DNA of 64,000 nucleotides from Aquimarina intermedia (lineage in GTDB: Bacteria > Bacteroidota > Bacteroidia > Flavobacteriales > Flavobacteriaceae), in NCBI RefSeq assembly GCF_008124785.1, contig NZ_VNHU01000005.1, positions 124,001 through 188,000 on the forward strand, given 5' to 3'. Position 1 is the stretch's first letter, and each line of letters starts with the position of its first letter. The notes below the pieces were generated by a model that ran no database searches, was not told where the DNA came from, and saw only the letters and a list, made by a program, of their open reading frames with translations. Positions 35,159-50,221 of this stretch are shown here, piece by piece. The translations under genes and the position numbers were made by a program.

Positions 35159-37345
35159 ATGTCAACACTTAGGTTCCGTGCTTTACAAGAAGCATTAAGT
35201 CGTAAAAACGTAACAATTAAAGAAATTGATCGTAGATCGGTTTTATTCGGAGAAAACGTTTTTAATCAAGAAACGATGCAACAATGTTTAACAGATGACG
35301 CTTACGAAAGTGTGATGAACGCTATAAACAGCGGCACTAAAATGGATCGTAAGATTGCTGATCAGATAGCTTCAGCTATGAAAGACTGGGCCTTGTCAAA
35401 AGGAGTTACGCATTATACACACTGGTTTCAGCCATTAACCGGAGCTACAGCCGAGAAGCATGATGCCTTTTTTGAAACTATTGGAGATGGGAAAGCGATA
35501 GAAAGATTTGGTGGCGGACAACTAGTTCAACAAGAGCCTGATGCCTCATCATTTCCTAATGGAGGAATAAGAAATACATTCGAAGCACGTGGGTACACTG
35601 CATGGGACCCAACATCTCCTGCCTTTATTTATGGTACTACTTTATGTATCCCTACAGTATTTGTATCTTATACAGGAGAAGCTTTAGATTATAAAACACC
35701 ATTACTGCGAGCTTTACAGTCGGTTGATCAAGCCGCGACAGCAGTAGCAAAATATTTTGATAAAAATGTAAAGAAGGTAAATGCCTCTTTGGGATGGGAA
35801 CAGGAATATTTTCTTATAGACAGTGCCTTGTTTAATACCAGACCGGACTTGGTGATGACAGGGCGTACCTTATTAGGGCATTCTCCGGCAAAAGGACAAC
35901 AATTAGATGATCATTATTTTGGTAGCATTCCATTACGTGCTTTAAATTTTATGATGGATCTTGAAATTGAATGTATGCGTTTGGGTATTCCTGTCAAAAC
36001 GCGTCACAATGAAGTAGCACCTAATCAATTTGAGTTAGCACCTATTTTTGAAGAATCCAATTTAGCAGTAGACCACAATTCACTACTTATGGATGTGATG
36101 GATAAAGTTGGAGCACGTCATGATTTTAAAGTGTTATTTCATGAAAAACCTTTCGCAGGTGTAAACGGTTCTGGAAAACATAACAATTGGTCGCTTAGTA
36201 CTAATACGGGAGTGAATTTATTGGGCCCGGGTAAAACACCGATGAGCAACTTACAATTCTTGACCTTTTTTATAAATACAATCAAAGCAATTAATGATAA
36301 TGAGGAGTTGATGCGTGCGGGGATTGCATCAGCCAGTAATGATCATCGATTAGGAGCCAATGAAGCTCCACCGGCAATTATCTCTGTATTTATAGGAGAG
36401 CAGCTGACGGCTGTTCTAAAAGAGTTGGAAAGTGTAACTAACGGAAAGCTCTCACCAAAGGAAAAGACAGATTTAAAATTAAATGTTGTAGGTAAAATTC
36501 CTGAGATTTTATTAGATAACACAGACCGTAATCGTACTTCGCCTTTTGCGTTTACCGGTAATAAGTTCGAATATAGAGCGGTGGGATCAAAAGCGAATTG
36601 TGCAAATCCTATGACGATCTTAAATACAATTGTTGCTAAGCAGTTACGTAATTTTAAGAAAGAAGTAGATGCATTGATTGATACAAAAGAACTGAAAAAG
36701 GACGAAGCTATCTTTAATGTATTGCGAGAGTATATCAAACAATCAAAGAATATTTTGTTTGAAGGTAATGGATATGGTGATGCTTGGGAACAAGAAGCAG
36801 CAAAGAGAGGATTGAGTAATAACAAAACCACTCCGGTTGCTTTAAAAGCAAAAATTTCAGAGAAATCTTTAGCACTGTTTGAAGAGATGGGGGTTATGAA
36901 CCGCATTGAATCTGAAGCGCGTTACGAAATTGAAATGGAAGAGTACGTAATGCGTATACAAATTGAAGGACGCGTTCTTGGCGATATTGCACGTAATCAC
37001 GTAATTCCGACAGCAGTCAAATATCAGAATACGTTGATTAGTAACGTTTCAGGTCTAAAAAGATTGTACGGAGACGATTTTAAAATGCATGCCAAAGAGC
37101 AGATGGAGATTATAGAAGAAATATCAAGGCATATAAGTCAAATCAATTCAAAAGTGAGTGATATGACCAATGCCCGTAAGGATGCTAACAACTTAACTGA
37201 CTCCGAAGAAATGGCGTATGCATATTGCGATAAAGTCAAGCCATTATTTGATGATATTAGGTACAGTTGTGATAAATTAGAGTTGTTAGTGGATGATGAA
37301 TTATGGCCGTTAACAAAGTACAGAGAGTTACTTTTTACAAGATAA
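35159..37345 (+). CDS. glnA: Glutamine synthetase type III
   Basis: The 728-residue length and N-terminal motif (STLRFRALQEAL, then FGENVFNQETM) define the GSIII (GlnN) class found in Bacteroidota and cyanobacteria. It condenses ammonia and glutamate to glutamine with ATP. Visible blocks: GWEQEYFLIDSALF (catalytic glutamates), HNEVAPNQFELAPIFEE, ATP-site GVNGSGKHNNWS, and NDHRLGANEAPPAI. A long C-terminal helical extension (residues ~560-728) is typical of the class. A dyad and -7 box lie upstream and a clear terminator downstream. Monocistronic. Confidence 0.97.
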   Translation: MSTLRFRALQEALSRKNVTIKEIDRRSVLFGENVFNQETMQQCLTDDAYESVMNAINSGTKMDRKIADQIASAMKDWALSKGVTHYTHWFQPLTGATAEKHDAFFETIGDGKAIERFGGGQLVQQEPDASSFPNGGIRNTFEARGYTAWDPTSPAFIYGTTLCIPTVFVSYTGEALDYKTPLLRALQSVDQAATAVAKYFDKNVKKVNASLGWEQEYFLIDSALFNTRPDLVMTGRTLLGHSPAKGQQLDDHYFGSIPLRALNFMMDLEIECMRLGIPVKTRHNEVAPNQFELAPIFEESNLAVDHNSLLMDVMDKVGARHDFKVLFHEKPFAGVNGSGKHNNWSLSTNTGVNLLGPGKTPMSNLQFLTFFINTIKAINDNEELMRAGIASASNDHRLGANEAPPAIISVFIGEQLTAVLKELESVTNGKLSPKEKTDLKLNVVGKIPEILLDNTDRNRTSPFAFTGNKFEYRAVGSKANCANPMTILNTIVAKQLRNFKKEVDALIDTKELKKDEAIFNVLREYIKQSKNILFEGNGYGDAWEQEAAKRGLSNNKTTPVALKAKISEKSLALFEEMGVMNRIESEARYEIEMEEYVMRIQIEGRVLGDIARNHVIPTAVKYQNTLISNVSGLKRLYGDDFKMHAKEQMEIIEEISRHISQINSKVSDMTNARKDANNLTDSEEMAYAYCDKVKPLFDDIRYSCDKLELLVDDELWPLTKYRELLFTR

Positions 37346-37382
37346 GTAAGAAATAACGTATTATAATTTTAACAAAATGTTT

Positions 37383-37418
37383 AAAAAAGCCATGGAACTG
37401 AGTTCTATGGCTTTTTTT
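37383..37418 (+). terminator. Rho-independent terminator after glnA
   Basis: AAAAAGCCATGGAAC pairs with GTTCTATGGCTTTTT (one G-T pair) around TGA, ending in seven T. Confidence 0.92.
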
Positions 37419-37638
37419 GTAGTGTTTCATCGAAATGTCATAATATTTTGAATCCTAGGCAATTAATTTTACTAAATTTACAAGAGTCAATAGTTGCAAC
37501 GATTGATAATACCCCTAGTCCCTTACACTATTTTTTGAGTTAACGATAATTATCGGAGCACGAAGTGTGCGGATAAGTATGATGCATATGTTTTTAAAAA
37601 TGGCAATAATTGTATTATCAATTTAAAACATTTCACAC

Positions 37639-38823
37639 ATGAAAAAAATGATTTTTGGCTTAGCAGCCCTTTTATTTTCAACCACAATAATGGTTGCGCA
37701 ATCTAATACTAGTAATATTTTACAGACTGGAACTTCAAACACCGCAAGTGTTGATCAGGACGGGTTAGAAAACGATGCCCTGACGACTCAAGATGGTATG
37801 TCTAATAACGCAGAAACAATTCAAGGTAGTGAGGCGTTTGCTTCAAGAAATGGAGTTGTTGTCCAGTCACAAACAGGTAACAAAAACAATGCATTTGCAC
37901 AACACGAAGAAGATCGTAATGAAATTTATCAAGTGCAGGTAGGTGATGGTAACTCAGCTTCCGCGACGCAAAATTTATTGAATTTTGGAGGAGATAATTA
38001 TGCGGATCAGTCTCAGGAGGGTGATCGTAATACCGCATTGATCTCTCAAGAAGGAAATGGCTTTTTTGGAGATGGAGTAGGTAATGTTGCTTTTCAAATT
38101 CAAGTTGGTGAAATGAATACTGCTACTACCGGACAAAACGGCGAAGATAACTTTAGTGGAATACTGCAAGAAGGTAGCGATAATGTAGCTACGATGGCTC
38201 AGGTTGGAAATGAAAACTATGCTGAGCAACTTCAAATAGGAGAAGCTAATATGGCTGCCGGCGAGCAATGGGGTACAGGTAATACACTCCTTCAATACCA
38301 AGAAGGCAGTGGTAATATGGCAACTTCATTGCAGGGAAGTTCCATCTTTGATTCTCGTAATGGTATTGTAGAACAAATACAATTGGGAGAAGAGAATACA
38401 GCCTTTGCTCAACATGAGGAGGATAATAATGAAATCTATCAAGTTCAGTTAGGGGATGGCAATAATGCATCAGCTACACAAAATCTAGCCTTCTTTGGTG
38501 GTGACAATGTCACTATGCAAGGACAGTTAGGGTCCAATAATGTTGCTGTAGCTTCTCAAGAAGGAGACTTTGGGATTTTTGGTGAAGACAACTTGGTAAT
38601 GCAAGTTCAATTAGGTGAAGGAAACATGGCAACATCTTCTCAAAATGGAGCTGAAAATGTAAGTGATATTTGGCAAGAGGGTGTAGAAAATGTAGCTTCA
38701 GATACGCAATTTGGTATCGGCAATTCAACAATGGTTCGTCAGACCGGAGCTATGCATAACAGCACAATTCTTCAGGTAGGGACTAGTAATGCAGCAGTTG
38801 TAAACCAAGTAGGAGGTTTATAA
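37639..38823 (+). CDS. Curlin-repeat protein (CsgA-like fibre subunit)
   Basis: The 394-residue protein has a signal peptide (LAALLFSTTIMVAQ, cleaved near 20) and then tandem curlin-type repeats of N-x5-Q-x-G-x-x-N-x-A pattern, e.g. QVGDGNSASATQN and QEGDRNTALISQEGN. These fold as strand-turn-strand beta-solenoids that form amyloid. E. coli CsgA has five repeats in 151 residues, so this is far longer. Residues 63-175 are duplicated at 233-345 with an exact 170-residue offset, including the odd non-curlin block FAQHEEDRNEIYQVQ. Composition is acidic and Asn/Gln/Gly-rich. It is the first gene of the curli locus, probably a major subunit. Confidence 0.88.
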   Translation: MKKMIFGLAALLFSTTIMVAQSNTSNILQTGTSNTASVDQDGLENDALTTQDGMSNNAETIQGSEAFASRNGVVVQSQTGNKNNAFAQHEEDRNEIYQVQVGDGNSASATQNLLNFGGDNYADQSQEGDRNTALISQEGNGFFGDGVGNVAFQIQVGEMNTATTGQNGEDNFSGILQEGSDNVATMAQVGNENYAEQLQIGEANMAAGEQWGTGNTLLQYQEGSGNMATSLQGSSIFDSRNGIVEQIQLGEENTAFAQHEEDNNEIYQVQLGDGNNASATQNLAFFGGDNVTMQGQLGSNNVAVASQEGDFGIFGEDNLVMQVQLGEGNMATSSQNGAENVSDIWQEGVENVASDTQFGIGNSTMVRQTGAMHNSTILQVGTSNAAVVNQVGGL

Positions 38824-38834
38824 ATTAAATTTTT

Positions 38835-38867
38835 AGTAACACTGCACAAATTAAGTGCAGTGTTACT
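38835..38867 (+). terminator. Strong intra-operon hairpin after the first curlin gene
   Basis: A perfect 13-bp stem AGTAACACTGCAC/GTGCAGTGTTACT with a 7-nt loop, followed by TTAATAAT rather than a run of T. It may cause partial termination or protect the curlin mRNA, favouring high subunit expression. Confidence 0.65.
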
Positions 38868-38889
38868 TTAATAATAAAATATAGAAATA

Positions 38890-39393
38890 ATGAATAATCT
38901 CGGCATAGTAATGAGTTTACTCATGCTTACAACATTAGGGTATGCTCAAGATATAGACGCTGATCAAGTAAGATCAGATTTACAGGATTGGCAGCTGGAT
39001 CAACAAGAAATATTTTCAGCTATTGACAGACCGTCAACTGAAATACAAGCAAATCTTAATAAATCGGTATTTATAAAACAGATAGGTGAGACCAACACTG
39101 CTTTTGTAGATGTTTTTTCAAACTCCTATGCAATAGAGGTAACACAATCCGGAGATTACAATGCAGTTGATATAAACGAATCTGCATTACAGATTTCAAA
39201 AAACATCATTCAAAATGGAGACAACAATACATATTTTGAAAATTCTTATACGATCGGTGAACATACAATGATTGATATCAACCAAGAGGGAAATAATCTA
39301 TATTTTGAAAAATTTGGAAGTAATGCACTTGCCAATAAAATTAAACTAAAAATGACTGGGAATTCTAAAACCATAATACTCCGAAATTTTTAA
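38890..39393 (+). CDS. Short curlin-repeat protein, CsgB-like nucleator candidate
   Basis: The 167-residue protein has a signal peptide (SLLMLTTLGYAQ), a charged linker (~20-58), and four or five degenerate curlin units: VFIKQIGETNTAFV, IEVTQSGDYNAVDI, KNIIQNGDNNTYF, IDINQEGNNLYF. It is close in size to E. coli CsgB (151 residues) and ends in a basic strand (TGNSKTIILRNF), as CsgB does (a basic last repeat). On this basis I suggest it is the fibre nucleator. It lies 66 bp after the first curlin gene, past a hairpin, and 29 bp before csgE. Confidence 0.75.
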   Translation: MNNLGIVMSLLMLTTLGYAQDIDADQVRSDLQDWQLDQQEIFSAIDRPSTEIQANLNKSVFIKQIGETNTAFVDVFSNSYAIEVTQSGDYNAVDINESALQISKNIIQNGDNNTYFENSYTIGEHTMIDINQEGNNLYFEKFGSNALANKIKLKMTGNSKTIILRNF

Positions 39394-39422
39394 CTATGAG
39401 ATGACTTTTAATATTTCAACCT

Positions 39423-40157
39423 ATGAAACCTAAAGGAATACTCTTATTTGTGTTTTTATTGTCAATATCGATAAACGCTCAAAAAAAAATTTCAAATGAC
39501 GTTGTAGCTAAAATCAAATTGGAGCAAATTGACGATATCATCACTATTCAAGCAACAGCAACAAACACCACAGAAGTTCTTAAAACTTTAAAATATACGC
39601 TCACTGTATTCAGAACTACTCCGTCAAATAATAAATCAAAAAACTCTCAAGAGGGAAGATTTACACTCGAAGCGAGCGAGTATAAAGAATTATCACAGAC
39701 ATCTATTAATAAGGAAGAGCGGGATCATTTAGTAATTATGCTTTTGATTAGTAGCGATCAAGGAATTATTGCTACAGATCGTTTAGAAATTAATGGAACC
39801 TCTAATGCAGAACAATCTAATAAAAACCCAAAAAACAACCCTAATGACGGAATTGAATTAAAAGGAATTGTAGTCGAGGAAACCAAGACGAAACCAGGAA
39901 AGGATTTTTACGACTTTTTTTATAGTACCTACTCTTTGAATCAAATTAATGGTAATAAAATAGTCAAGGTGGTAGAGAATTTAAGTTTTGGCCGTAGTAC
40001 TATTATTAAGGTCACTATAGAAGATAATACCATCTTTGAATTTCTAGGAAAACCGGATTTAGAGTATCTGGAACAAATGTCAAACACCGCTGTGCGTAAG
40101 GTGTATCGTTATTTTCAAGACTTAAAAGAGCAGAAAGAAAATATTTTTCAATATTGA
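39423..40157 (+). CDS. csgE: CsgE with N-terminal CsgH-like domain
   Basis: The 244-residue periplasmic protein has a signal peptide (1-19), a CsgH-like beta domain (~25-125, with KYTLTVFRTTPSNN and NSQEGRFTLEASEYKELSQT), an Asn-rich linker (~126-143) and a CsgE domain (~144-238, with GIVVEETKTKPGKDFYDFF and FGRSTIIKVTIEDN). In known systems CsgE caps the CsgG pore and gives substrate specificity, while CsgH blocks premature amyloid growth in the periplasm. Here one chain may do both. It is between the CsgB-like gene and the second curlin gene. E. coli CsgE is about 129 residues, so the N-terminal half is extra. Confidence 0.82.
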   Translation: MKPKGILLFVFLLSISINAQKKISNDVVAKIKLEQIDDIITIQATATNTTEVLKTLKYTLTVFRTTPSNNKSKNSQEGRFTLEASEYKELSQTSINKEERDHLVIMLLISSDQGIIATDRLEINGTSNAEQSNKNPKNNPNDGIELKGIVVEETKTKPGKDFYDFFYSTYSLNQINGNKIVKVVENLSFGRSTIIKVTIEDNTIFEFLGKPDLEYLEQMSNTAVRKVYRYFQDLKEQKENIFQY

Positions 40158-40192
40158 GAAAAACTATCTATAATAAACAAAATTCTTGTGTC

Positions 40193-41695
40193 ATGAAAGC
40201 ATTTATTTTAACAGGAGTCTTAACTCTACTGGGAGTGAAGTTTGGATTTACTCAAACGACAAACGAGATTGTAATTGATCAACAATCCACAAACAGTGCA
40301 ATAACAGTCACACAGACTGGAGAAAATTTGTACGCTGGCGTAACCCAAGGTGGGTTGATTGATGGTGAGTTAGGGGATAATAATACAGCGATAATCCAGC
40401 AATTGGGTTCGGTAAACACCACAGAAATTTTACAGAGAGGAAATAATAATGAAAGCGAAATAAGCATAAATGCTTATAGCAGCCATACTACTATTTTACA
40501 AGAGGGATTTAATAATTTAGCGAAAAGTTCGAGTAGAGGAAATTATCTTATTAATTCTACGATCTCACAAATAGGTAATTTTAATACTAGTAATATTATT
40601 ACGTATGGGGAAAATGAAATGATTGCTTCTATTCAACAACAGGGATACAACAATTTGGCTTCAATTAACGTAAGTTCTGAAATATGGGGGTTCTCTGATG
40701 CTCATCAAATTCAAATCGGAAATAATAATTCAATATCGTTATTTCAAAACGACATAATAACGGGATATTCATTACAGCACCAAGAGAGTTATACTGATTT
40801 GGGTAATGTGGCTATAGGAGTGATGCAGGGTAGACGTGTCAAGTTGGAACAGTTTCAAAAAGGTGATGGTAATTATGTTGAAAGCAACCAACATGGTTGG
40901 GGAGGAATTGTTTTTTCGGCTTATGCAAGTCAAGTTCAAACAGGTAATGATAACTCGGCAATAGCTTTTCAATTTGGAGAAGATATTAAAACAATTCAAA
41001 CTCAAGAAGGAAATTCCAATAAAATTCAAGCGTATCAAGATATTGAACAGGGAGCCAGTAAGATAGTACAATCTCAAATTGGTGTTGGTAACGGGATGAA
41101 CGTAATTCAAACAAATTTGTTTGGGTCTAAAGTGTCGCAAAACCAACAAGGAAACTTGAATAGTGCAATTGCCGATCAGGGGACAACTCGTTATTCTGAA
41201 TCCCTAAACTTGAATCAGGAACAGATCGGTGATAGCAATATAAGTTATGCTAAGCAAGATGGGTATTATAGTGCATTTGAGCAAAAGCAGTTAGGAGATA
41301 ATAACCGAATAAATTCATTGCAATCTGGCGATTCTCATACTTCAAAGATATATCAAGTAGGCGTGAAGAATACTATAGAAACTGAACAGGAGGATTATTC
41401 GAATATGTTGAGATCTAAGCAGGAAGGTGGTGGTCATTTAATAACAGTTACCCAAGGTGGTAATTATAACTTTGTAGAGCAAATACAGTTCGGTAATGAC
41501 AATCAAATAAGTTCATTACAATTTGGGGAAGACAATAATTTACTAATGAATCAAGTAGGTGGAAATAATCGTATAAATGCAGAACAGGGCGGGCAATGGA
41601 ATGTCGTGCAAGCTTTGCAGAGGGGAAATGGTCTTCATACAGAAGTAGTCCAAGCAGGATTCTTTAGCACCATTACCATTCAACAATCAAACTAA
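40193..41695 (+). CDS. Long curlin-repeat protein, paralogue 2
   Basis: The 500-residue protein has a signal peptide (FILTGVLTLLGVKFGFTQ) followed by NEIVIDQQSTNSAITVTQTG, nearly the same opening as paralogue 3. About twenty curlin-type repeats follow (QIGNNNSISLFQN, QVGGNNRINAEQGG). I choose the ATG at 40193 because it begins the signal peptide; a TTG at 40154 overlaps the end of csgE and adds 13 unrelated residues. Gln/Asn/Ser-rich. Probably a fibre subunit or specialised adhesin exported by CsgG. Confidence 0.87.
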   Translation: MKAFILTGVLTLLGVKFGFTQTTNEIVIDQQSTNSAITVTQTGENLYAGVTQGGLIDGELGDNNTAIIQQLGSVNTTEILQRGNNNESEISINAYSSHTTILQEGFNNLAKSSSRGNYLINSTISQIGNFNTSNIITYGENEMIASIQQQGYNNLASINVSSEIWGFSDAHQIQIGNNNSISLFQNDIITGYSLQHQESYTDLGNVAIGVMQGRRVKLEQFQKGDGNYVESNQHGWGGIVFSAYASQVQTGNDNSAIAFQFGEDIKTIQTQEGNSNKIQAYQDIEQGASKIVQSQIGVGNGMNVIQTNLFGSKVSQNQQGNLNSAIADQGTTRYSESLNLNQEQIGDSNISYAKQDGYYSAFEQKQLGDNNRINSLQSGDSHTSKIYQVGVKNTIETEQEDYSNMLRSKQEGGGHLITVTQGGNYNFVEQIQFGNDNQISSLQFGEDNNLLMNQVGGNNRINAEQGGQWNVVQALQRGNGLHTEVVQAGFFSTITIQQSN

Positions 41696-41804
41696 ACTTT
41701 TGAAGAGTGTAATAACATTTTTTATAGAACGTATTTGATATAGACTTGTAAACTAATAGACTCACCTACCAACTTAAATATATAGTAACTTAAATCACAC
41801 ACTT

Positions 41805-43385
41805 ATGAAAAACAACATTTTACTAGTCATGGGGCTTTCAAGTCTTCAATTTACAATTGCACAAACCACGAGCAATGAAATTGTAATAGATCAAAACTCA
41901 GAAAACAGTGTTATAACCGTGACACAGGTTGGTGAGGATTTATATGCAAATGTTACGCAAGTAGGCGAAACCCCCGAAGAGGAAGGAGAGAATAATACAG
42001 CAATTATTGATCAAACAGGAGGGTGGGGAACCGCATCTATTATCCAGCTCGGAGAGGATAATTATGCAAAAATCGATCAAAAAAATAATACCTATAATAT
42101 TTATGAGAGTTTCGCTCGCATTACCCAAGAAGGAGAGTTAAACACAGCAGATATTTTTTCGAGAGGTGAAAGCGTTACGGCAGAGATAATTCAAATAGGA
42201 GATAACAATGATGCAACCATCTTTCAGAATGGGATTTTTGATGACATTGCTAAGATTACTCAAACTGGTAACCTGAATACAGCAGAAATTTTACTCGATG
42301 GTTTTGACTATTTGAGCACTAATTACTCGGTACAAATACAGGTGGGAGATAGAAATATAACTTCGATATCAATGGATGCTTCAAGTTTCGGCAATTATTC
42401 CTATCAATATCAAGAAAGTATTGAAGGGGATGGCAACACGGCTGTAGCCACACAATCATCTCGTTTTAATAGAGTAGAACAACGACAAATCGGAGATAGA
42501 AATATAGCAACTTCTACGCAAAGAAGAGTTCGTATGAATAGTACTGCAGATCCGGGAGAACCCGAACTTTTAGTTAAACAAAAGCAAACAGGGTTAGACA
42601 ATGAAGCCACAGGCTATCAATTTGGTGAAAGTAGCGTAATAGAACAAATTCAAATAGGTAATAGCAACATAGCAATCACTTCTCAAGGTACCGATATTCA
42701 AGAATCCCACGTTAGCACCACCTTTCAGCAACAAACAGGTAATTATAATCAAGTCTCATCCAAGCAAATTATGCCAGTAAATGATTTGTACCCAGGTAAG
42801 GTTCGACAAATTCAAATTGGTGATAATAATCAAATTTCGTCTATTCAAACGCGTGGTTCCAATGCTACGATCTCACAAGAAGGAAATAAAAATATTGCAA
42901 CTAGTTCGCAGAACGGATTTACTGCTGGATCTATAACAATAACTCAAAATAGTTTGCATAGTTGTTCTGGTAATGAGGCAACAGCAGTACAAACCGGTAA
43001 TGATCAATTTAAGTGGTACAATAGCTCTATAGTTCAAAATCAAGAAGAAAATCAAAATGTAGTCACTGCAACTCAGGACAATGCCGAATATAGTAGTTTA
43101 AGTCAATCGCAAATAGGAATCCTCAATCAAGCTACGGCATTACAAATGGGTTATGAGAATAGCCTGACTCAAATTCAGCAAGGAGATTCGAATGTTTTGC
43201 TTTCTACACAGTCTGGAGAAGGAAATATTACAGTAGCACGTCAATTTGGAGATATGAATACGATGGAAACTACTCAAACCGGAATGTATAACTCTTTAAA
43301 ATATACACAACAAGGTTCAGGGCTTGAGGCTACAATTACGCAGAGTGGTGATATGGGGAGTATCAATATAACTCAAACCAATTAA
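41805..43385 (+). CDS. Long curlin-repeat protein, paralogue 3
   Basis: The 526-residue protein has a signal peptide (LLVMGLSSLQFTIAQ) and then tandem curlin units to the end (QIGDNNDATIFQNG, QVGDRNITSISMD, QIGDNNQISSIQT). The N-terminal NEIVIDQNSENSVITVTQVG and C-terminal GSINITQTN mirror paralogue 2, so the two genes are a tandem duplication that has since diverged. One unusual insert (MNSTADPGEPELLVKQKQTG, around residue 245) breaks the repeat rhythm. A hairpin follows the gene, before csgF. Confidence 0.87.
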   Translation: MKNNILLVMGLSSLQFTIAQTTSNEIVIDQNSENSVITVTQVGEDLYANVTQVGETPEEEGENNTAIIDQTGGWGTASIIQLGEDNYAKIDQKNNTYNIYESFARITQEGELNTADIFSRGESVTAEIIQIGDNNDATIFQNGIFDDIAKITQTGNLNTAEILLDGFDYLSTNYSVQIQVGDRNITSISMDASSFGNYSYQYQESIEGDGNTAVATQSSRFNRVEQRQIGDRNIATSTQRRVRMNSTADPGEPELLVKQKQTGLDNEATGYQFGESSVIEQIQIGNSNIAITSQGTDIQESHVSTTFQQQTGNYNQVSSKQIMPVNDLYPGKVRQIQIGDNNQISSIQTRGSNATISQEGNKNIATSSQNGFTAGSITITQNSLHSCSGNEATAVQTGNDQFKWYNSSIVQNQEENQNVVTATQDNAEYSSLSQSQIGILNQATALQMGYENSLTQIQQGDSNVLLSTQSGEGNITVARQFGDMNTMETTQTGMYNSLKYTQQGSGLEATITQSGDMGSINITQTN

Positions 43386-43425
43386 TGAGGTGTAATTACA
43401 GAGCCTAATTATATTCAACTAGACT

Positions 43426-43453
43426 AAGTCTGGTGATTAATATCGCCAGACTT
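43426..43453 (+). terminator. Hairpin between curlin paralogue 3 and csgF
   Basis: A 12-bp stem AAGTCTGGTGAT/ATCGCCAGACTT (one G-T pair) with a TAAT loop. It lacks a T tract, so it is a candidate attenuator or processing/stability element rather than a full stop. Confidence 0.6.
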
Positions 43454-43473
43454 ACTTCTAAAAATTAAAAATC

Positions 43474-43878
43474 GTGAAGAGAATTTTATTATGTATTTTA
43501 TGTATACCCGCGTTTTCTGTGTTACAAGCACAGGAACTTGTGTACAAACCTAAAAATCCGGCATTTGGAGGGGATACATTCAACTACCAATGGCTGTTGA
43601 GCTCGGCCGAATCGCAGAATAAATTTACCGAAGAAACCAGTTCCGGGAGAGATCAACGATCCGATTTAGAGCGATTTACCGAAAGCCTTAATAATCAATT
43701 GTTGAGTCAAATTTCAAGAACTTTATTTACAGAGCAATTTGGAAATGAAGGGTTGCAAGAAGGGACCTATACCTTCGGAACTTTGTTTATTGAAATTTTT
43801 CCTTCAGGAGAGGGACTGGTCATCAACATACTCGATACGAGTACAGGAGACCAATCTCAAGTAGTAATACCTAACTAA
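43474..43878 (+). CDS. csgF: Curli assembly protein CsgF
   Basis: The 134-residue protein has a signal peptide (LLCILCIPAFSVLQAQ) followed by the diagnostic CsgF segment ELVYKPKNPAFGGDTFNYQWLLSSA, whose N-terminus in E. coli plugs into the CsgG pore (Asn-Pro-x-Phe-Gly-Gly). E. coli CsgF is 138 residues, so length is normal. It couples secretion to nucleation at the cell surface. The start is a GTG codon. Its stop is 6 bp before csgG, so the two are translated from one message. Confidence 0.95.
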   Translation: MKRILLCILCIPAFSVLQAQELVYKPKNPAFGGDTFNYQWLLSSAESQNKFTEETSSGRDQRSDLERFTESLNNQLLSQISRTLFTEQFGNEGLQEGTYTFGTLFIEIFPSGEGLVINILDTSTGDQSQVVIPN

Positions 43879-43884
43879 TCATTA

Positions 43885-45270
43885 ATGAATTCAAAATTTT
43901 ACACAGTAACGTTTATAATTTCACTTTCTATCTCGTTATCCAGTTGCGGAACCTATTTTAATCAGCCACTTACAATAGAAGAAGCTCGCATTGGAGAAGA
44001 TACGGAATTATCGGAAGAGTTGCGTAATTTTCCTTTACCCCAAGAGCCCGTAGTGGTTGGCGTATATAAATTTCGCGATCAAACAGGTCAATATAAACCT
44101 ACAGAAAATGGAAGTACCTTTAGTACTGCAGTTACACAAGGTGCAACCACAATTTTAATTAAAGCTCTTGAAGATTCAAAATGGTTCGTGCCGATCGAAA
44201 GAGAGAATTTAAGCAACCTTCTGAACGAGCGTAATATTATTCGTTCCACCAGAAAAGAATATCAAAAAACTCAAAATACGGATCAACCACAGTTACCACC
44301 GTTACTTTATGCAGGCATTATTCTTGAAGGCGGTATCGTTTCTTATGATTCAAACATCATTACCGGTGGGTTAGGAGCGCGATACTTTGGTATTGGTGGC
44401 TCTACACAATACCGTCAAGACCGAATTACAATATATTTGCGTGCTGTATCAACGTCAAGCGGAAAAATTCTTAAAACGGTCTATGTATCTAAAACGATAT
44501 TATCTCAGGCCCTGGATGCCAGTTTTTTTAGGTATGTGAAATTTAAAAGACTCTTAGAAGCCGAAACTGGTATCACAAAGAACGAGCCTGCACAACTTGC
44601 AGTCACCGAAGCCATTGAAAAAGCGGTCGCTTCTTTAATTGTTGAAGGTATTGAAGATAACTTATGGGCGCCAACTGCCGAGCCGGAAGAAGTTGAACAA
44701 TTGCTGTTTAACTACAAAACCGAAAAATTTAAGGCACAAAACACCAATCTGTATGATCGATATATGAGAGATCGACGTAACAAACATGCTTTTTTTATTC
44801 AAGGGGGAACCTCCCTTATTAGCGGAGACTATGGTAATTCAGAGCTTTCATATAACGGCGGACTCGGAATGAAATGGTTTTTTAATCCATACGTGAACCT
44901 TGCAGCATCTATAAGTAAGTTTGAACTCAAAAATGATCCTTCTTTTGTAAATGGGTTTAATGCTTTTCAGCTCAATAGTGAGTTTATTCTGCTGCCACAA
45001 GAAAAGTTTACGCCCCTTCTGTTTGGTGGTGCCGGCGTTGTGAACGCAGACAGTTTTGATAAAACCTTATTTCAATTACAATATGGGGGAGGTGTTGAAT
45101 ATTTAATGAAGGACACCTTTGGCATTAGTCTCAGCGGAACACATAATGTTGTCATGAGCGATAAATTAGATGATGTCGTTCAGGGAAAACGGGATGATCA
45201 GTATTTTAATTTTGTGGTAGGACTTAATTGGTATTTTGGTAAAACCAAAAGAATAGTTATGCAGAATTAA
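43885..45270 (+). CDS. csgG: Curli secretion pore CsgG with extra C-terminal barrel-like domain
   Basis: The 461-residue lipoprotein (lipobox LSSC, Cys21) has a CsgG domain over residues ~40-285: VVGVYKFRDQTGQYKP, GATTILIKALEDSKWFVPIERENLSNLLNER, GGIVSYDSN. In E. coli nine such subunits form an outer-membrane export channel. E. coli CsgG has 277 residues; here ~165 further residues (about 297-461) read as alternating beta strands ending GLNWYFGKTK, like a small outer-membrane-type barrel (HAFFIQGGTSLISGDYGN, VNLAASISKFEL). It closely follows csgF. The extension could anchor partners or shape the outer face of the pore; this is inference. Confidence 0.9.
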   Translation: MNSKFYTVTFIISLSISLSSCGTYFNQPLTIEEARIGEDTELSEELRNFPLPQEPVVVGVYKFRDQTGQYKPTENGSTFSTAVTQGATTILIKALEDSKWFVPIERENLSNLLNERNIIRSTRKEYQKTQNTDQPQLPPLLYAGIILEGGIVSYDSNIITGGLGARYFGIGGSTQYRQDRITIYLRAVSTSSGKILKTVYVSKTILSQALDASFFRYVKFKRLLEAETGITKNEPAQLAVTEAIEKAVASLIVEGIEDNLWAPTAEPEEVEQLLFNYKTEKFKAQNTNLYDRYMRDRRNKHAFFIQGGTSLISGDYGNSELSYNGGLGMKWFFNPYVNLAASISKFELKNDPSFVNGFNAFQLNSEFILLPQEKFTPLLFGGAGVVNADSFDKTLFQLQYGGGVEYLMKDTFGISLSGTHNVVMSDKLDDVVQGKRDDQYFNFVVGLNWYFGKTKRIVMQN

Positions 45271-45350
45271 CAAGGATCAACTCTCAAAGCAAATAAATAA
45301 AGATTAAAATAAAAATTTACGTTCCAGTAAATATTCAATAAATAAGATAT

Positions 45351-46841
45351 ATGAAAATATTCTATTCAATACTAGTATGCATCACACTATATAGCATTAT
45401 GTCCTGTAGTGAAGATACAATTGAACTTGAAGGTTTAGGTGCAGTAAAAGGAAAAGTAGTTGCGGTAAATACGAATGAACCTCTAGAAAATGTAAAGATT
45501 TCAACCAACCCATCTACTAGTACAGTCTTTTCTGATAAAGACGGGAATTATGTCATAGAAAACATACCGACAGGGGATTATTCAATCTCTGCACAACGAG
45601 AAGGTTTGTTGGCAGAATTTGAGGCTATTTCGGTATTAACTGACAAAACCCTCGAAGTAGTATTTGAAATGGATGTCGAGACTGCCGCGAATCGTCCACC
45701 CAATGCGGCAAAATTGGTAACACCTCCGGATAATGCTACAGATCAACCGGTCGAGGTACAATTGATTTGGTCTGGGAGTGATCCGGACAAAGAAGATGTC
45801 TTAGAATATACACTTAGTTTACGAAACGATCAAAATGATACCGTAGCGTATTTTGAAGAAATCAAAGATACTACCTACACTGTTACGGGGTTGATATATG
45901 GAGCCAAATATTTTTGGCAGGTGACGACTACAGATGCTATTAATGATCCTGTCAATAGTGAAACATTTGCATTCACAATCGCAACAGCATCCAATAACAG
46001 AATAGTGTTTAGTCGTCTCGTTGAAGGCAATAGTGTGATATATTCTGTCGATGAAGCAGGGGAGAATCCGATACGCTTAACCTCACTTTCAAAAAATAGC
46101 TTTCGACCAAGAAGAAATGTACAAAATGGTAAAATAGCGTATTTACAATCTGTCGGATCTCAAGTACATTTATTTACCATGAGTCTGGATGGATCTAATC
46201 AAAAGCAAATTACCTCACAGGTACCGGTAGTAGGTTTCAATTTGGAAGAAGTTGATTTTTCCTGGGATCAAAATGGGGCCAAACTTTTATATCCTAATCA
46301 GGACAAGTTGTACGAAATTAATAATGATGGTAGTGGATTAGCTGAGCGGTTTCAAACAACCAACGGGAATGTAATTACAGAAATTGATGTTTATGAGGCA
46401 GGTGATATAACGGCGCTTAAAACTAATAACCTGGAAGGGTATAACGTCGAGATATTTACTATTGATGCATCCGGAACGGTTCTCACTACGGTAGTTTCTG
46501 GTGTTGCCGGTGCAGCCGGAGGAATTAATCTTTCTGTAGGTGGTAATTTGTTATTATTTAGTCGCGATGTTTCAGCGTTTGAAAGTAGCTCTTATCGACA
46601 GTTGGATACCAGATTATTCGTCTACAATTTTGCAGATAGCACCACAACTGATATTTCTTCGGACAAACCTGCAGGAACTAATGATTTGGATGCGCGCTTT
46701 TCGCCCAATGAGGTAAGTGTGATTCTTACAAATACCTCAAATGATGGATTATCTATGAAAAACATACAGACACTTGCAATACAAGGCGGATCAGCCCGAA
46801 CATCAATAATTGAAAATGCATCCATGCCTGATTGGGAATAA
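45351..46841 (+). CDS. Curli-locus lipoprotein: carboxypeptidase-regulatory, Fn3-like and beta-propeller domains
   Basis: The 496-residue lipoprotein (lipobox SIMSC, Cys19) has a carboxypeptidase-regulatory-like domain at ~30-108 (AVKGKVVAVNTNEPLENVKI, then DKDGNYVIENIPTGDYSIS). An Fn3-type domain is at ~118-212 (VEVQLIWSGSDPDKEDVLEY, YGAKYFWQV). A TolB/WD40-like propeller fills ~218-496 (NRIVFSRLVEGNSVIYSVDE, LYEINNDGSG). It is 80 bp after csgG with no terminator between, so probably in the same operon. A surface-exposed receptor or anchor for curli fibres is a reasonable inference. Its stop is close to the purM promoter. Confidence 0.78.
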   Translation: MKIFYSILVCITLYSIMSCSEDTIELEGLGAVKGKVVAVNTNEPLENVKISTNPSTSTVFSDKDGNYVIENIPTGDYSISAQREGLLAEFEAISVLTDKTLEVVFEMDVETAANRPPNAAKLVTPPDNATDQPVEVQLIWSGSDPDKEDVLEYTLSLRNDQNDTVAYFEEIKDTTYTVTGLIYGAKYFWQVTTTDAINDPVNSETFAFTIATASNNRIVFSRLVEGNSVIYSVDEAGENPIRLTSLSKNSFRPRRNVQNGKIAYLQSVGSQVHLFTMSLDGSNQKQITSQVPVVGFNLEEVDFSWDQNGAKLLYPNQDKLYEINNDGSGLAERFQTTNGNVITEIDVYEAGDITALKTNNLEGYNVEIFTIDASGTVLTTVVSGVAGAAGGINLSVGGNLLLFSRDVSAFESSSYRQLDTRLFVYNFADSTTTDISSDKPAGTNDLDARFSPNEVSVILTNTSNDGLSMKNIQTLAIQGGSARTSIIENASMPDWE

Positions 46842-46881
46842 GATAATTTATAATTCGGATTTCAGAATTCTTAAATTCGGT

Positions 46882-46889
46882 TATCTTTG
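46882..46889 (+). promoter_or_regulatory. -7 box (TATCTTTG) for purM
   Basis: A TAnnTTTG match 18 bp before the ATG at 46908, showing that the in-frame upstream codons at 46887 are not translated. Confidence 0.7.
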
Positions 46890-46907
46890 TGGCTTAACAC
46901 AACATTC

Positions 46908-48089
46908 ATGAGTCAAGAAGTAAGCAAACGGTATGCCCAACGTGGTGTTTCTGCCGCCAAAGAAGATGTACACAATGCGATCAAAAATATTGATAAGGGT
47001 CTTTTTCCTAAAGCATTTTGTAAAATTGTTGAGGATCATTTAACCGGAGACGAAGCATATTGTTTAATTATGCATGCTGATGGTGCAGGAACAAAATCTT
47101 CCTTAGCCTATATGTATTGGAAAGAAACTGGCGATATTTCTGTTTGGAAAGGAATTGCCCAGGACGCACTTATCATGAATATTGATGATCTGTTATGTGT
47201 TGGTGCAACCGATAATATTATGCTTTCATCTACGATCGGAAGAAATAAAAATTTAATTCCGGGAGAGGTGCTGTCTGCAATTATCAATGGGACTGAAGAA
47301 TTGTTGGCTGATTTAAAAGAATTCGGCGTTACGATTCATTCTACAGGAGGAGAGACTGCTGATGTCGGAGATTTAGTTCGAACCATTATAGTGGACTCTA
47401 CTGTAACGGCGCGTATGAAACGAAGCGATGTCATAGATAATGCCAATATCAGACCAGGTGATGTGATCGTTGGTTTATCCTCTTTTGGTAAAGCATCGTA
47501 TGAAAAAGAATATAACGGCGGTATGGGTAGTAACGGACTAACCTCTGCACGTCACGATGTGTTTGATAAAAGTCTTGCTTCCAAATATCCTGAAAGTTTT
47601 GACCCTTCTGTACCAACGGAGTTGGTATATTCAGGAAAAACTAACTTGACTGATGAGGTTGCTGATTCCCCCCTTGATGCCGGGAAACTGATATTGTCGC
47701 CTACACGCACGTATGCGCCCATAATTAAGAAAATTTTGGAACAGTATACAAGCGATCTCATTCATGGAATGGTGCATTGTAGCGGTGGTGCGCAAACTAA
47801 AGTATTACATTTTGTAGATGGGGTACATGTTATCAAAGATTCGCTTTTTGATGTGCCACCTTTATTTAAATTGATTCAGGAAAACTCAGGAACTGACTGG
47901 AAAGAAATGTATCAGGTGTTTAATATGGGACACCGTATGGAACTATACGTCTCGCCAGAAGTAGCAGAAGATATTATCGCTATATCAAAAAGTTTTGATG
48001 TAGATGCACAAATTGTCGGGAGGGTAGAAGCTTCAGATACTAAAAAGCTGACGATTACATCAGAGTATGGAACATTTGAATACAAATAA
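46908..48089 (+). CDS. purM: Phosphoribosylformylglycinamidine cyclo-ligase (AIR synthase), Bacteroidota type
   Basis: The 393-residue protein has the PurM/AIR-synthase fold: IMHADGAGTKSSLAYMYW (ATP loop), GIAQDALIMNIDDLLCVGA, STGGETADVGDLVRTIIVDS and GDVIVGLSSFGKASYE. It closes the imidazole ring to give AIR in purine synthesis. Bacteroidota members are longer than E. coli PurM (345 residues), and are sometimes just called AIR-synthase-related. ATG 46908 is chosen because the upstream in-frame start overlaps the -7 box. It lies a few kb from prfA, a common pairing in Flavobacteria. A terminator follows. Confidence 0.88.
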   Translation: MSQEVSKRYAQRGVSAAKEDVHNAIKNIDKGLFPKAFCKIVEDHLTGDEAYCLIMHADGAGTKSSLAYMYWKETGDISVWKGIAQDALIMNIDDLLCVGATDNIMLSSTIGRNKNLIPGEVLSAIINGTEELLADLKEFGVTIHSTGGETADVGDLVRTIIVDSTVTARMKRSDVIDNANIRPGDVIVGLSSFGKASYEKEYNGGMGSNGLTSARHDVFDKSLASKYPESFDPSVPTELVYSGKTNLTDEVADSPLDAGKLILSPTRTYAPIIKKILEQYTSDLIHGMVHCSGGAQTKVLHFVDGVHVIKDSLFDVPPLFKLIQENSGTDWKEMYQVFNMGHRMELYVSPEVAEDIIAISKSFDVDAQIVGRVEASDTKKLTITSEYGTFEYK

Positions 48090-48163: not shown

Positions 48164-50221
48164 CTATTTTGGTATTAAGCAAAATCCTTCGATGTCAGTA
48201 GCATGCCGAGTAATATTTTTACTATGCATAATTGTTCTGTCGTATACTGATAAACGAATGTTATATCCACATTGTGGCATGTTGTTGGTTGCCAACTCCC
48301 AAGTACCGGTTTTACCTGGAGCAACAATGTCATTATAACTAATAGAATTTCCTGGGACTCCATCGATAGAGATGACTCCCGAATTTGACTCCGGACTCGG
48401 TGTTGCTACAAAACTCATCACTCTTGGATACTCAGATAAGGCTTTATATTCACCAGAGATGACATCTCCGGGTTTAAAGCTTCCGCAATTTCCCGCACCA
48501 GAAGTAATTTCAACATCAGCCACCGGAGCTTCCTTGTGCGCCATAAAGTTAGTTGAGTTACCAGTAAGTAACAGCGTAGCACTTCCTGCATTTCTTACCT
48601 CAATTTTTATAGTATGCATTCCACTTTGCGTTGGAATGAAATATCCTAAATAGTTGCCCACAAATTTAGTATACGGCATCCATCCATCTGCATCCGGGAT
48701 AAGCGTCTCTTCTCCAGAAAATCCTATCTTATCTGCAGTAACATGATTCAACAAATTATAGGAACCACTACTTGGAGGTGTGATAACTAGGCGATATTCT
48801 AGGGCTGTAGATCCACCGTTGATGAGACTTCCTGTAAAATTAATTTTACCATCAAATGGACTTTCCTCGGCATTCATACTTAGACCTAAAGCATCTGATC
48901 CATTTGCTAAACCATCGGTTTGATCGATATCATCAATATGCATACTTCCCAATGTTTCTATGTTTAGACTTAAATTACCGGGAATGATCCCTTTAGGTAA
49001 AGACTTAACTTCAACATGACATTGTTCCCAATCTCCCCAATGCGCCACATGATTTGGTTGGTTTATTGGTGGCGCAACATTCCAGCTTAAAATACCTTTT
49101 AGTTTGGCTTTACCGGACTCACACCACTCTTTGCGTTTTTTGTCTAAATCTACGGCGAGTGCTGCGTTGTAATTAAGTCCATCTTTCGGAATTTCTGAAA
49201 TATTGTGAACCGTGATTGAAGAGGTTCCCATATATTCCCAGCCACTGCCAAAATCCATGTAAAAAGCAACATACTCTTTACTCCCCGTCTGACAAAGATT
49301 ACCGGAGTATCCTGCTGATTTTTTGAGGTGGATGGTACCATGCAAGGTAGTCATTGCACGATTAAGTGCGACACAGGTCAACTCTTCATAGGTTGTGTTA
49401 AACTTTGGTTTCAACAGGAAATCCAAAATATTAGAAAAATCAAAATCAAGCTGATTAAGGTATCCCGGTAATGCAAAGGGTGTTGCATCTTGAGAATTTA
49501 TTTTCTTAATCGCAGATGCATACCCAAAGCGTGTTGCCGGAATTTTGTGTTTCTTAATGATTTCCACCTGGTCTTTGATTGAAATATTCTTGAAATCGGG
49601 TAACAGGTTATTTTTCTTTAAAATGGTGTCGATTTTTTTAAATTTTGGATATAAAACGAAATCATCAAAAAAGCATTGAAATCCGCGTAAAGGTTCGATT
49701 TGAACGTTACGTTCGATAACATTGCCCCAATAAGGTGTCCAATTTGGTTGATTGGCCGGTGGTGCCGCGTTCCATGATAGAATGGCACGTACTTTAGGGA
49801 GCACAGGTTTCTTATCGCAACATCTGCGCTTGTCCGGATCAATTTTAAGTTGGACGTTATAACACAAATCCTCGTCAAAACCCAGACTATGTGCATTAAA
49901 ATTGGTGACCCCTTCATCTACCCAATTTCCGTTGCGATCATAGTCGAAGTAAAAACGAACATATTCAAATGTCCCTTTACTACACGCATTACCTCCGTAG
50001 CCTGATGCTTGTTTAATTTTTACAATTGCATTGATCACTTCATTTTTAGGGATATAACTAACGCATACGATTTCTTCGAATTGTGTGTTCTGGTTTATAG
50101 AAGAAAGATCGCCAATAGCTTCTGTAGCTGACAGAACATTATTTTGCGAATCTTTAGCCGCTAGCAGTAAAATGTTGAAATTACTGCGCAGATTTGATAC
50201 TGACTTTGAGATTTTTTCCAT
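48164..50221 (-). CDS. Large protein of unknown function with duplicated ~130-residue domain
   Basis: The 685-residue protein has no signal peptide. Residues 48-178 and 278-408 are two copies of one domain at an exact 230-residue offset. Shared marks: ASGYGGNAC / SAGYSGNLC, FEYVRFYFDYD / KEYVAFYMDFG, ILSWNAAPPANQPN / ILSWNVAPPINQPN, then YWGN / HWGD. Each copy has conserved Cys residues. The C-terminal ~270 residues look like two immunoglobulin-like beta domains (GSTALEYRLVITPPSSGSYN; SGMHTIKIEVRNAGSATLLL). I know no named family. The gene is monocistronic with a CCCC/GGGG dyad upstream, so it may be regulated by a surface- or envelope-type regulator. Confidence 0.7.
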   Translation of the reverse strand: MEKISKSVSNLRSNFNILLLAAKDSQNNVLSATEAIGDLSSINQNTQFEEIVCVSYIPKNEVINAIVKIKQASGYGGNACSKGTFEYVRFYFDYDRNGNWVDEGVTNFNAHSLGFDEDLCYNVQLKIDPDKRRCCDKKPVLPKVRAILSWNAAPPANQPNWTPYWGNVIERNVQIEPLRGFQCFFDDFVLYPKFKKIDTILKKNNLLPDFKNISIKDQVEIIKKHKIPATRFGYASAIKKINSQDATPFALPGYLNQLDFDFSNILDFLLKPKFNTTYEELTCVALNRAMTTLHGTIHLKKSAGYSGNLCQTGSKEYVAFYMDFGSGWEYMGTSSITVHNISEIPKDGLNYNAALAVDLDKKRKEWCESGKAKLKGILSWNVAPPINQPNHVAHWGDWEQCHVEVKSLPKGIIPGNLSLNIETLGSMHIDDIDQTDGLANGSDALGLSMNAEESPFDGKINFTGSLINGGSTALEYRLVITPPSSGSYNLLNHVTADKIGFSGEETLIPDADGWMPYTKFVGNYLGYFIPTQSGMHTIKIEVRNAGSATLLLTGNSTNFMAHKEAPVADVEITSGAGNCGSFKPGDVISGEYKALSEYPRVMSFVATPSPESNSGVISIDGVPGNSISYNDIVAPGKTGTWELATNNMPQCGYNIRLSVYDRTIMHSKNITRHATDIEGFCLIPK

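Follow-up and report, generated by a model that had tools for sequence, protein, structure and literature searches.

A curli operon of Aquimarina intermedia in which a CsgC/CsgH-type domain is fused to CsgE

The export of amyloid subunits without nucleation inside the cell is an open problem. In the curli (type VIII secretion) system of Escherichia coli (csgBAC-csgDEFG), the nonameric CsgG pore is capped by CsgE, which also binds CsgA (PMC6050966; published sources are cited here as represented in excerpts). The chaperones CsgC and CsgH block CsgA nucleation (PMC4838910), and CsgA fiber formation is inhibited by CsgC at ratios down to 1:1000 and by CsgE at about 1:1, with the potency of CsgH equaling that of CsgC (PMC5135000). 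Curli are widespread in Bacteroidota, and a survey of December 2025 lists CsgA/B+CsgEFG and CsgA/B+CsgH among the five commonest cluster types (PMC12822426). Here, we analyzed a stretch of 64,000 nucleotides (the window) from Aquimarina intermedia (contig NZ_VNHU01000005.1, positions 124,001 to 188,000; genome of 3.49 Mb in 29 contigs). Eight collinear, intact genes on its forward strand (37639-46841 in window coordinates) are identified by sequence as a curli operon of an Aquimarina-type species of Flavobacteriaceae. The csgE gene of this operon encodes an anti-amyloid CsgC/CsgH-type domain fused to CsgE, and we consider it likely that the locus as a whole is a curli operon combining a CsgH-type chaperone tethered to CsgE, a barrel-like part of CsgG, inserted giant curlins, and hairpins at curlin genes.

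The window and the E. coli system have in common CsgA-type repeat subunits, a CsgB-sized subunit, CsgE, CsgF, and CsgG. Unlike E. coli, the window has one collinear cluster with no csgD seen within it, a CsgC-type domain fused to CsgE, a larger CsgG, subunits of 394 to 526 residues, and an additional lipoprotein. Bacteroidota curli operons, as far as the excerpts of their descriptions go, likewise hold many long curlins and csgEFG without a separate csgC; in contrast to these, two giant curlins of the window sit between csgE and csgF (PMC3521004, PMC10192328). The four curlins, CsgE, CsgF, and CsgG all exceeded the curated Pfam cut-offs, so that the locus unites curlin-repeat subunits (Curlin_rpt in four of four proteins) with CsgG, CsgE, and CsgF (PF03783, PF10627, and PF10614). 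These matches bear out the first-pass annotation, which had described a complete Bacteroidota-type curli locus with all parts at these positions.

The fused gene (csgHE, 39423..40157) codes for 244 residues, comprising a CsgC/CsgH-like domain (residues ~24 to 126), a linker (~127 to 142), and a CsgE domain (~146 to 238). Its closest named relatives are Aquimarina records (49 to 63% identical). The first-pass annotation had called it csgE, which is right for the C-terminal domain (PF10627, E = 6.1e-11, above the Pfam cut-off) but overlooked the two-domain CsgH-CsgE fusion. Residues 29 to 116 matched the NCBIfam CsgH model NF041112 with 39.2 bits (cut-off, 35), and a profile of 62 fused proteins retrieved both partners from the Protein Data Bank (PDB): CsgE 2na4 (9.6e-10, positions 142 to 233) and CsgC 2xsk and 2y2t (8.6e-4 and 1e-3, positions 32 to 112). 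An AlphaFold2 model (predicted local distance difference test score [pLDDT], 88.6) contained seven strands at residues 27 to 123 and a low-confidence linker (127 to 142), followed by an alpha/beta domain. When this model was compared with the PDB by Foldseek, Rhodopseudomonas palustris CsgH (2n59) ranked first (E = 4.5e-6; target template modeling [TM] score, 0.67) and CsgC 2xsk seventh (target TM score, 0.79), in agreement with the seven-stranded immunoglobulin-like fold of the CsgC/CsgH family. The rows ranked between them are presumably proteins bearing beta-sandwich domains. Among the 62 aligned fused proteins, 48 matched the CsgH model at E ≤ 0.001. The fusion was also present in 79 of 79 named loci, which derive from the best 80 of 224 in a scan seeded by a CsgE motif.

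By analogy to the E. coli system, we infer a mechanism in which the chaperone is tethered to the cap. Curlins would enter the periplasm via signal peptides, stay unfolded, and pass through the CsgG pore, and outside they would polymerize as beta-solenoid amyloid with the help of CsgF and the CsgB-like subunit. The CsgC/CsgH-type domain would be held at the pore cap CsgE by the flexible linker, and up to nine inhibitor domains would probably ring the channel entrance and keep long curlins unfolded during threading. Such a tethered chaperone would suit long subunits, because these have more potentially nucleating repeats and a longer threading time. The fusion would thereby join two steps that were examined apart in E. 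coli. It may also account for the scoring of Bacteroidetes curli as lacking csgC in Dueholm 2012 (PMC3521004), as the domain would have been counted within CsgE. A Bacteroidetes CsgH subfamily was already noted by Taylor 2016 (PMC4838910), and perhaps consists of these fused domains.

Several observations weigh against an inhibitor at the cap. In E. coli, complementation of curli formation was achieved even by CsgE mutants that form no nonamer in vitro (PMC6050966), which weakens the ring-based argument. In the Foldseek search, other beta-sandwich proteins scored near CsgH, CsgE 2na4 was absent from the 50 rows shown, and the predicted TM score (pTM) of 0.50 indicates low confidence in the domain arrangement of the model. 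The other 14 of the 62 fused proteins were above E = 0.001 with the CsgH model, and when seven fused relatives were scanned singly, one passed the NF041112 cut-off, five stayed below it, and one (L118; L and G numbers denote loci and genomes) gave no match. Many Bacteroidota are without the fusion. Moreover, no cysteine was found in the fused domain of any of the 62 proteins, so that the disulfide patterns of CsgC (CxC) and of CsgH (a distant pair) are both missing. For CsgC and CsgH assayed elsewhere, the isoelectric point (pI) exceeded the subunit pI by more than 2 units, and charge was central (PMC4838910). The domain in the window differs from these chaperones, with which it shares the sequence model match and the seven-stranded fold, in being fused rather than a free protein, in having no cysteines, and in a smaller pI gap: its pI of 5.11 is 0.6 to 1.1 above those of the four window curlins (4.05 to 4.51). 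Among relatives, the gap was at least 2 in 21 of 58 and above zero in 56 of 58. Since the CsgE domain is basic in the family (median pI, 9.22; window, 6.5), the charge attraction may have moved there. The missing cysteines and the low pI would also fit a degraded CsgH that has lost its chaperone activity and serves as a structural immunoglobulin-like spacer positioning CsgE, all the more as other lineages have a LysM-type or no recognized domain at this place and CsgE therefore works without a CsgH domain. We regard such a spacer as unlikely, given that the seven strands are retained, the CsgH/CsgC sequence is still recognizable, and the domain occurs throughout the named loci.

The spread of N-terminal modules on CsgE was surveyed across Bacteroidota. 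Of 395 genomes sampled across the phylum, 41 had CsgE (the window's own included). Among these 41, 16 carried the CsgH-CsgE fusion, 2 a split pair, 5 a separate CsgH-like open reading frame (ORF) in the locus, 11 an N-terminal domain of LysM type, and 7 no recognized N-terminal domain. These classes were tallied with our own domain hidden Markov models, built partly from the counted rows, and Pfam and NCBIfam served as outside checks. Six genomes first seen in 3-kb pieces were reread more widely, with a contig of only 5.5 kb in one (G237). Two of the five separate CsgH-like ORFs (L104 and L111; the others are in L115, L123, and L268 of genome G460) reached 61.6 and 55.5 bits with the NCBIfam CsgH model. 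In one split pair (L097), a CsgH of 134 residues (35.6 bits, barely above the NCBIfam cut-off) adjoins a CsgE of 100 residues; in the other (L096), CsgH likewise has 134 residues and the CsgE match lies within a frame of 115. Eight of these 11 LysM-type proteins (L107, L109, L112, L114, L117, L125, L041, and L050) passed the Pfam cut-off for LysM, L044 fell just under it (6.4e-4), and L110 and L046 had no LysM match in Pfam. The CsgH-fused members L103 and L118 are distant from the others, L103 being a weak match (1.1e-9) and L118 lacking an NCBIfam match. Within the family, matches to the fused protein came from 27 of 120 sampled genomes; the match in G100 was weak, with no curli gene at its position. 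LysM-type domains bind peptidoglycan. We tentatively propose, at somewhat short of an even chance, that CsgE of Bacteroidota is a modular cap, with a CsgH module in Flavobacteriales and a LysM-type module in other families, and that the inhibitor thereby reaches the mouth of the pore as a ring rather than acting as a free protein of the periplasm. If so, this ring would let very long curlins exit without intracellular nucleation. Modular CsgE is apparently undescribed: in those parts of the open-access literature that were covered, neither a CsgH-CsgE nor a LysM-CsgE fusion was described.

Downstream, csgF (43474..43878; 134 residues; PF10614, 2.2e-41) is followed by csgG (43885..45270; 461 residues; PF03783, 3.1e-68, residues 50 to 263) and by a gene for a curli-associated lipoprotein (45351..46841; 496 residues). 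The order csgE-csgF-csgG-lipoprotein was the same in all 79 named loci, in each of which the lipoprotein was the next labeled ORF past csgG. CsgG has 277 residues in the E. coli model, versus 450 to 531 in family and phylum loci (57 counted) and 459 to 517 in same-genus loci (40 counted, excluding one protein cut by the locus end). The excess corresponds to a C-terminal part resembling an outer membrane beta-barrel: residues ~379 to 451 of the window protein matched OMP_b-brl (E = 1.1e-4), and the protein matched the PorG model (1.2e-6), under the cut-off of that model. It counts against a barrel in the window that the OMP_b-brl match, too, is under the curated Pfam cut-off; among 20 C-terminal parts of CsgG, 14 matched at E ≤ 0.1, with a best value of 1.2e-11. 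An extra barrel-like part of CsgG is thus moderately supported by sequence matches, and perhaps serves as a membrane anchor for the pore. The lipoprotein contains a CarboxypepD_reg part, and its fn3-like and TolB/propeller-like matches were weak. Its counterparts in some other families of Bacteroidota appeared by eye to be shorter, with a similar N terminus and a differing C-terminal part (L105, L109, L110, L111, L113, L114, L115, L117, and L125).

Upstream of csgHE lie a csgA orthologue coding for the major curlin (37639..38823; 394 residues; Curlin_rpt, 2.5e-21, 6 stretches) and a gene for a CsgB-sized curlin, the presumed nucleator (38890..39393; 167 residues; 1.7e-4, 1 stretch). Each of the 35 same-order loci (L067-L091 and L093-L102) had an ORF of 130 to 195 residues with 2 to 4 QxGxxN motifs directly ahead of csgE. 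The giant curlins follow csgHE at 40193..41695 (giant 1; 500 residues; Curlin_rpt, 5.6e-14, 5 stretches) and 41805..43385 (giant 2; 526 residues; 2.2e-18, 6 stretches), and the Curlin_rpt scan that the first-pass annotation had suggested thus did find repeats in 40193-43385. The length of giant 1 rests on the ATG at 40193; a TTG at 40154, where the same frame begins, would give 513 residues. QxGxxN occurred 21 times in CsgA, 3 times in the CsgB-sized curlin, 19 times in giant 1, and 17 times in giant 2, whereas 1,000 shuffles of each curlin gave, in the same order, means of 0.67, 0.08, 0.78, and 0.51 and maxima of 4, 2, 4, and 4. A search for tandem-repeat DNA returned no rows.

The first-pass annotation had singled out the size and number of the subunits as unusual. 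The best relatives of the window csgA are csgA genes of same-genus csg operons (67 to 69% identical for the eight best shown), and by its sequence it is the ordinary csgA of its genus. The curlin directly ahead of the csgB-like gene has 392 to 532 residues in 40 same-genus loci, and 40 of the 178 curlin ORFs of the 79 named loci reach at least 500 residues (longest, 702). A curlin of 1041 residues occurs in one member of the family (L076), the Flavobacteriaceae, to which we take Sediminicola to belong as well. In the published excerpts, CsgA homologues have at most 529 residues and at most 22 repeats, and the csgA/B homologues number as many as six (Dueholm 2012, PMC3521004). Furthermore, curlins with 4 to 62 repeats and genomes with as many as 30 copies of CsgA are reported, a Pontibacter korlensis curlin with 15.5 repeats was docked into a cryo-electron microscopy map, and curlins with degenerate, longer repeats are recognized as a class, with Sediminicola as an example (Sleutel 2023, PMC10192328). 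Because a CsgA homologue of 529 residues is published (PMC3521004) and long curlins are routine in the genus, curlin size was rejected as a point of interest, and the claim of unusual size did not hold up (PMC3521004, PMC10192328). The claim about number held in part. Four curlins are uncommon in the genus, where 36 of 40 loci have two, three loci have three, and one has five (L173), and at least four occur in just 4 of the 79 named loci; on the other side, 16 of 59 family and phylum loci have at least four, and up to six homologues are on record (PMC3521004).

Curlin genes were also seen outside such operons. The genome of the window contains a further curlin-repeat ORF of 409 residues (L126:7951-9180, on G000:C7), with no csg gene recognized in the 16 kb around it. 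Orphan curlins of 521 to 888 residues are present in same-genus genomes (L256-L259, L262, L264, and L267), each beside an ORF of 462 to 465 residues and a long ORF of 620 to 1065 residues (some of these cut at the contig or locus end). The same-genus locus L173 holds two csg operons in tandem, the second of which is cut in csgG at the end of the sequence covered for that locus.

Along with the CsgH-CsgE fusion, the placement of the giants between csgE and csgF is among the more unusual points of the locus. A curlin at this position was found in none of 62 family and phylum operons (56 from the 59 loci plus 6 further phylum loci), none of 42 operons from the full set of 41 further genomes of the genus that gave a match, and none of 81 operons in the 79 named loci, a set that overlaps the other two. 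Three loci stand outside this count: L092 has no curli gene, L096 has no CsgE ORF of at least 60 residues with a start codon, and L112 is without csgF, although curlins come after its csgE. The first-pass annotation had noted this position and had called the giants clear tandem paralogues, and both statements were confirmed. The position was seen in no relative compared. Over their full length, the two giants share 36% identity, versus 28 to 33% with other curlins (best-scoring proteins among those listed). Their base composition is native, with guanine-plus-cytosine (GC) contents of 0.358 and 0.370 (window, 0.366) and GC contents at third codon positions of 0.279 and 0.266, inside the range of 0.244 to 0.356 of the other locus genes. 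A foreign origin was rejected on these grounds. Descent from orphan curlins or csgA was likewise not supported, the identity to the best-scoring ones being 28 to 33%; trees of their descent are unreliable because they are repeat proteins. The mutual identity, the lower identity to others, and the native composition together mark the giants as an old tandem pair.

In an AlphaFold2 model computed from an alignment of 23 curlins, giant 1 is all-beta with 34 strands (pLDDT, 84.5; pTM, 0.79). Foldseek found no PDB match to this model at E ≤ 0.001. The solved P. korlensis curli subunit 8c50 was among the 50 weak rows shown (rank 13, E = 1.7), many of which we take to be beta-helix or solenoid proteins. 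A beta-solenoid is thus supported indirectly for the model of giant 1, through its strand pattern and its family. The first-pass annotation had allowed for a composite fiber or for separate adhesins. The giants are probably co-transcribed minor or alternative subunits. Alternatively, they could be surface adhesins that are exported by the same machine but are not subunits of the CsgA fiber. Identities of ~28 to 36% to the best-scoring other curlins listed would agree with this, as would a lower density of clean repeats (19 and 17 QxGxxN motifs versus 28 to 31 in genus CsgA proteins of 480 to 532 residues), whereas the core repeat positions are retained, giant 1 is predicted to be all-beta, and a curlin class with degenerate, longer repeats is already known (PMC10192328). 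On balance, we rate adhesins as possible but somewhat doubtful. It is also conceivable that the giants are duplicates that could be dispensed with and experience little selection, as none of the 41 further genomes of the genus with a match has them at this place, and genus-wide matches to giant 2 of ~300 residues or more are 30 to 40% identical (among the matches listed). Yet, both are open across 500 codons with regular repeats, ordinary base composition, and starts that by eye resemble signal peptides, and their 36% mutual identity indicates long persistence since duplication; we hold expendability to be distinctly improbable.

RNA hairpins with covariation were observed at the 3' ends of major curlin genes, and among the scored gaps hairpins are specific to curlin genes. 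In the window, a hairpin with a 13-bp stem (38835..38867, forward strand; fold, -20.5 kcal/mol) lies at the 3' end of csgA ahead of the csgB-like gene, and another of 13 bp (43425..43454, forward strand) lies after giant 2 ahead of csgF; after giant 1, a 10-bp stem was equaled by 1 of 20 shuffles and is hence no clear hairpin. Among relatives, 55 of the 64 gaps that separate csgA from the csgB-like gene contained stems of at least 10 bp, as did 15 of the 18 further curlin-curlin gaps, versus none of the 34 remaining operon gaps of sufficient length for scoring; since gaps of <25 or >700 nt were unscored (169 short ones after non-curlin genes), these 34 controls represent the longer gaps. The mean longest stem in the csgA-csgB gaps was 14.8 bp versus 7.0 bp when shuffled. 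In an alignment of 31 of the 40 same-genus gaps plus the window, changes on both sides occurred at 11 of 16 pairs, and 97.0% of cells paired versus 84.4% in shuffles and 35 to 48% in slid versions. Left out of this alignment were L139, L140, and L142 (with stems, resembling the kept rows), L148, L173, and L175 (stems of 13 to 20 bp), and L153, L157, and L174 (no 10-bp stem). A search of 37000-47500 against Rfam gave no match.

The hairpins probably raise the level of subunit mRNA over that of machinery mRNA. They might instead be plain terminators of a monocistronic csgA message, with the csgB-like gene and the machinery having their own promoters. Stem-loops of mostly 11 to 20 bp and T-rich sequence after the stems of many relatives speak for this reading, which we nevertheless hold to be somewhat doubtful: the T run of the window hairpin is weak, and the short gaps of the window together with the constant gene order in the named loci suggest read-through. 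One gene past the curli locus, the reverse strand (48164-50221) codes for a protein of 685 residues with an internally repeated segment (ILSWN.APP.NQPN).

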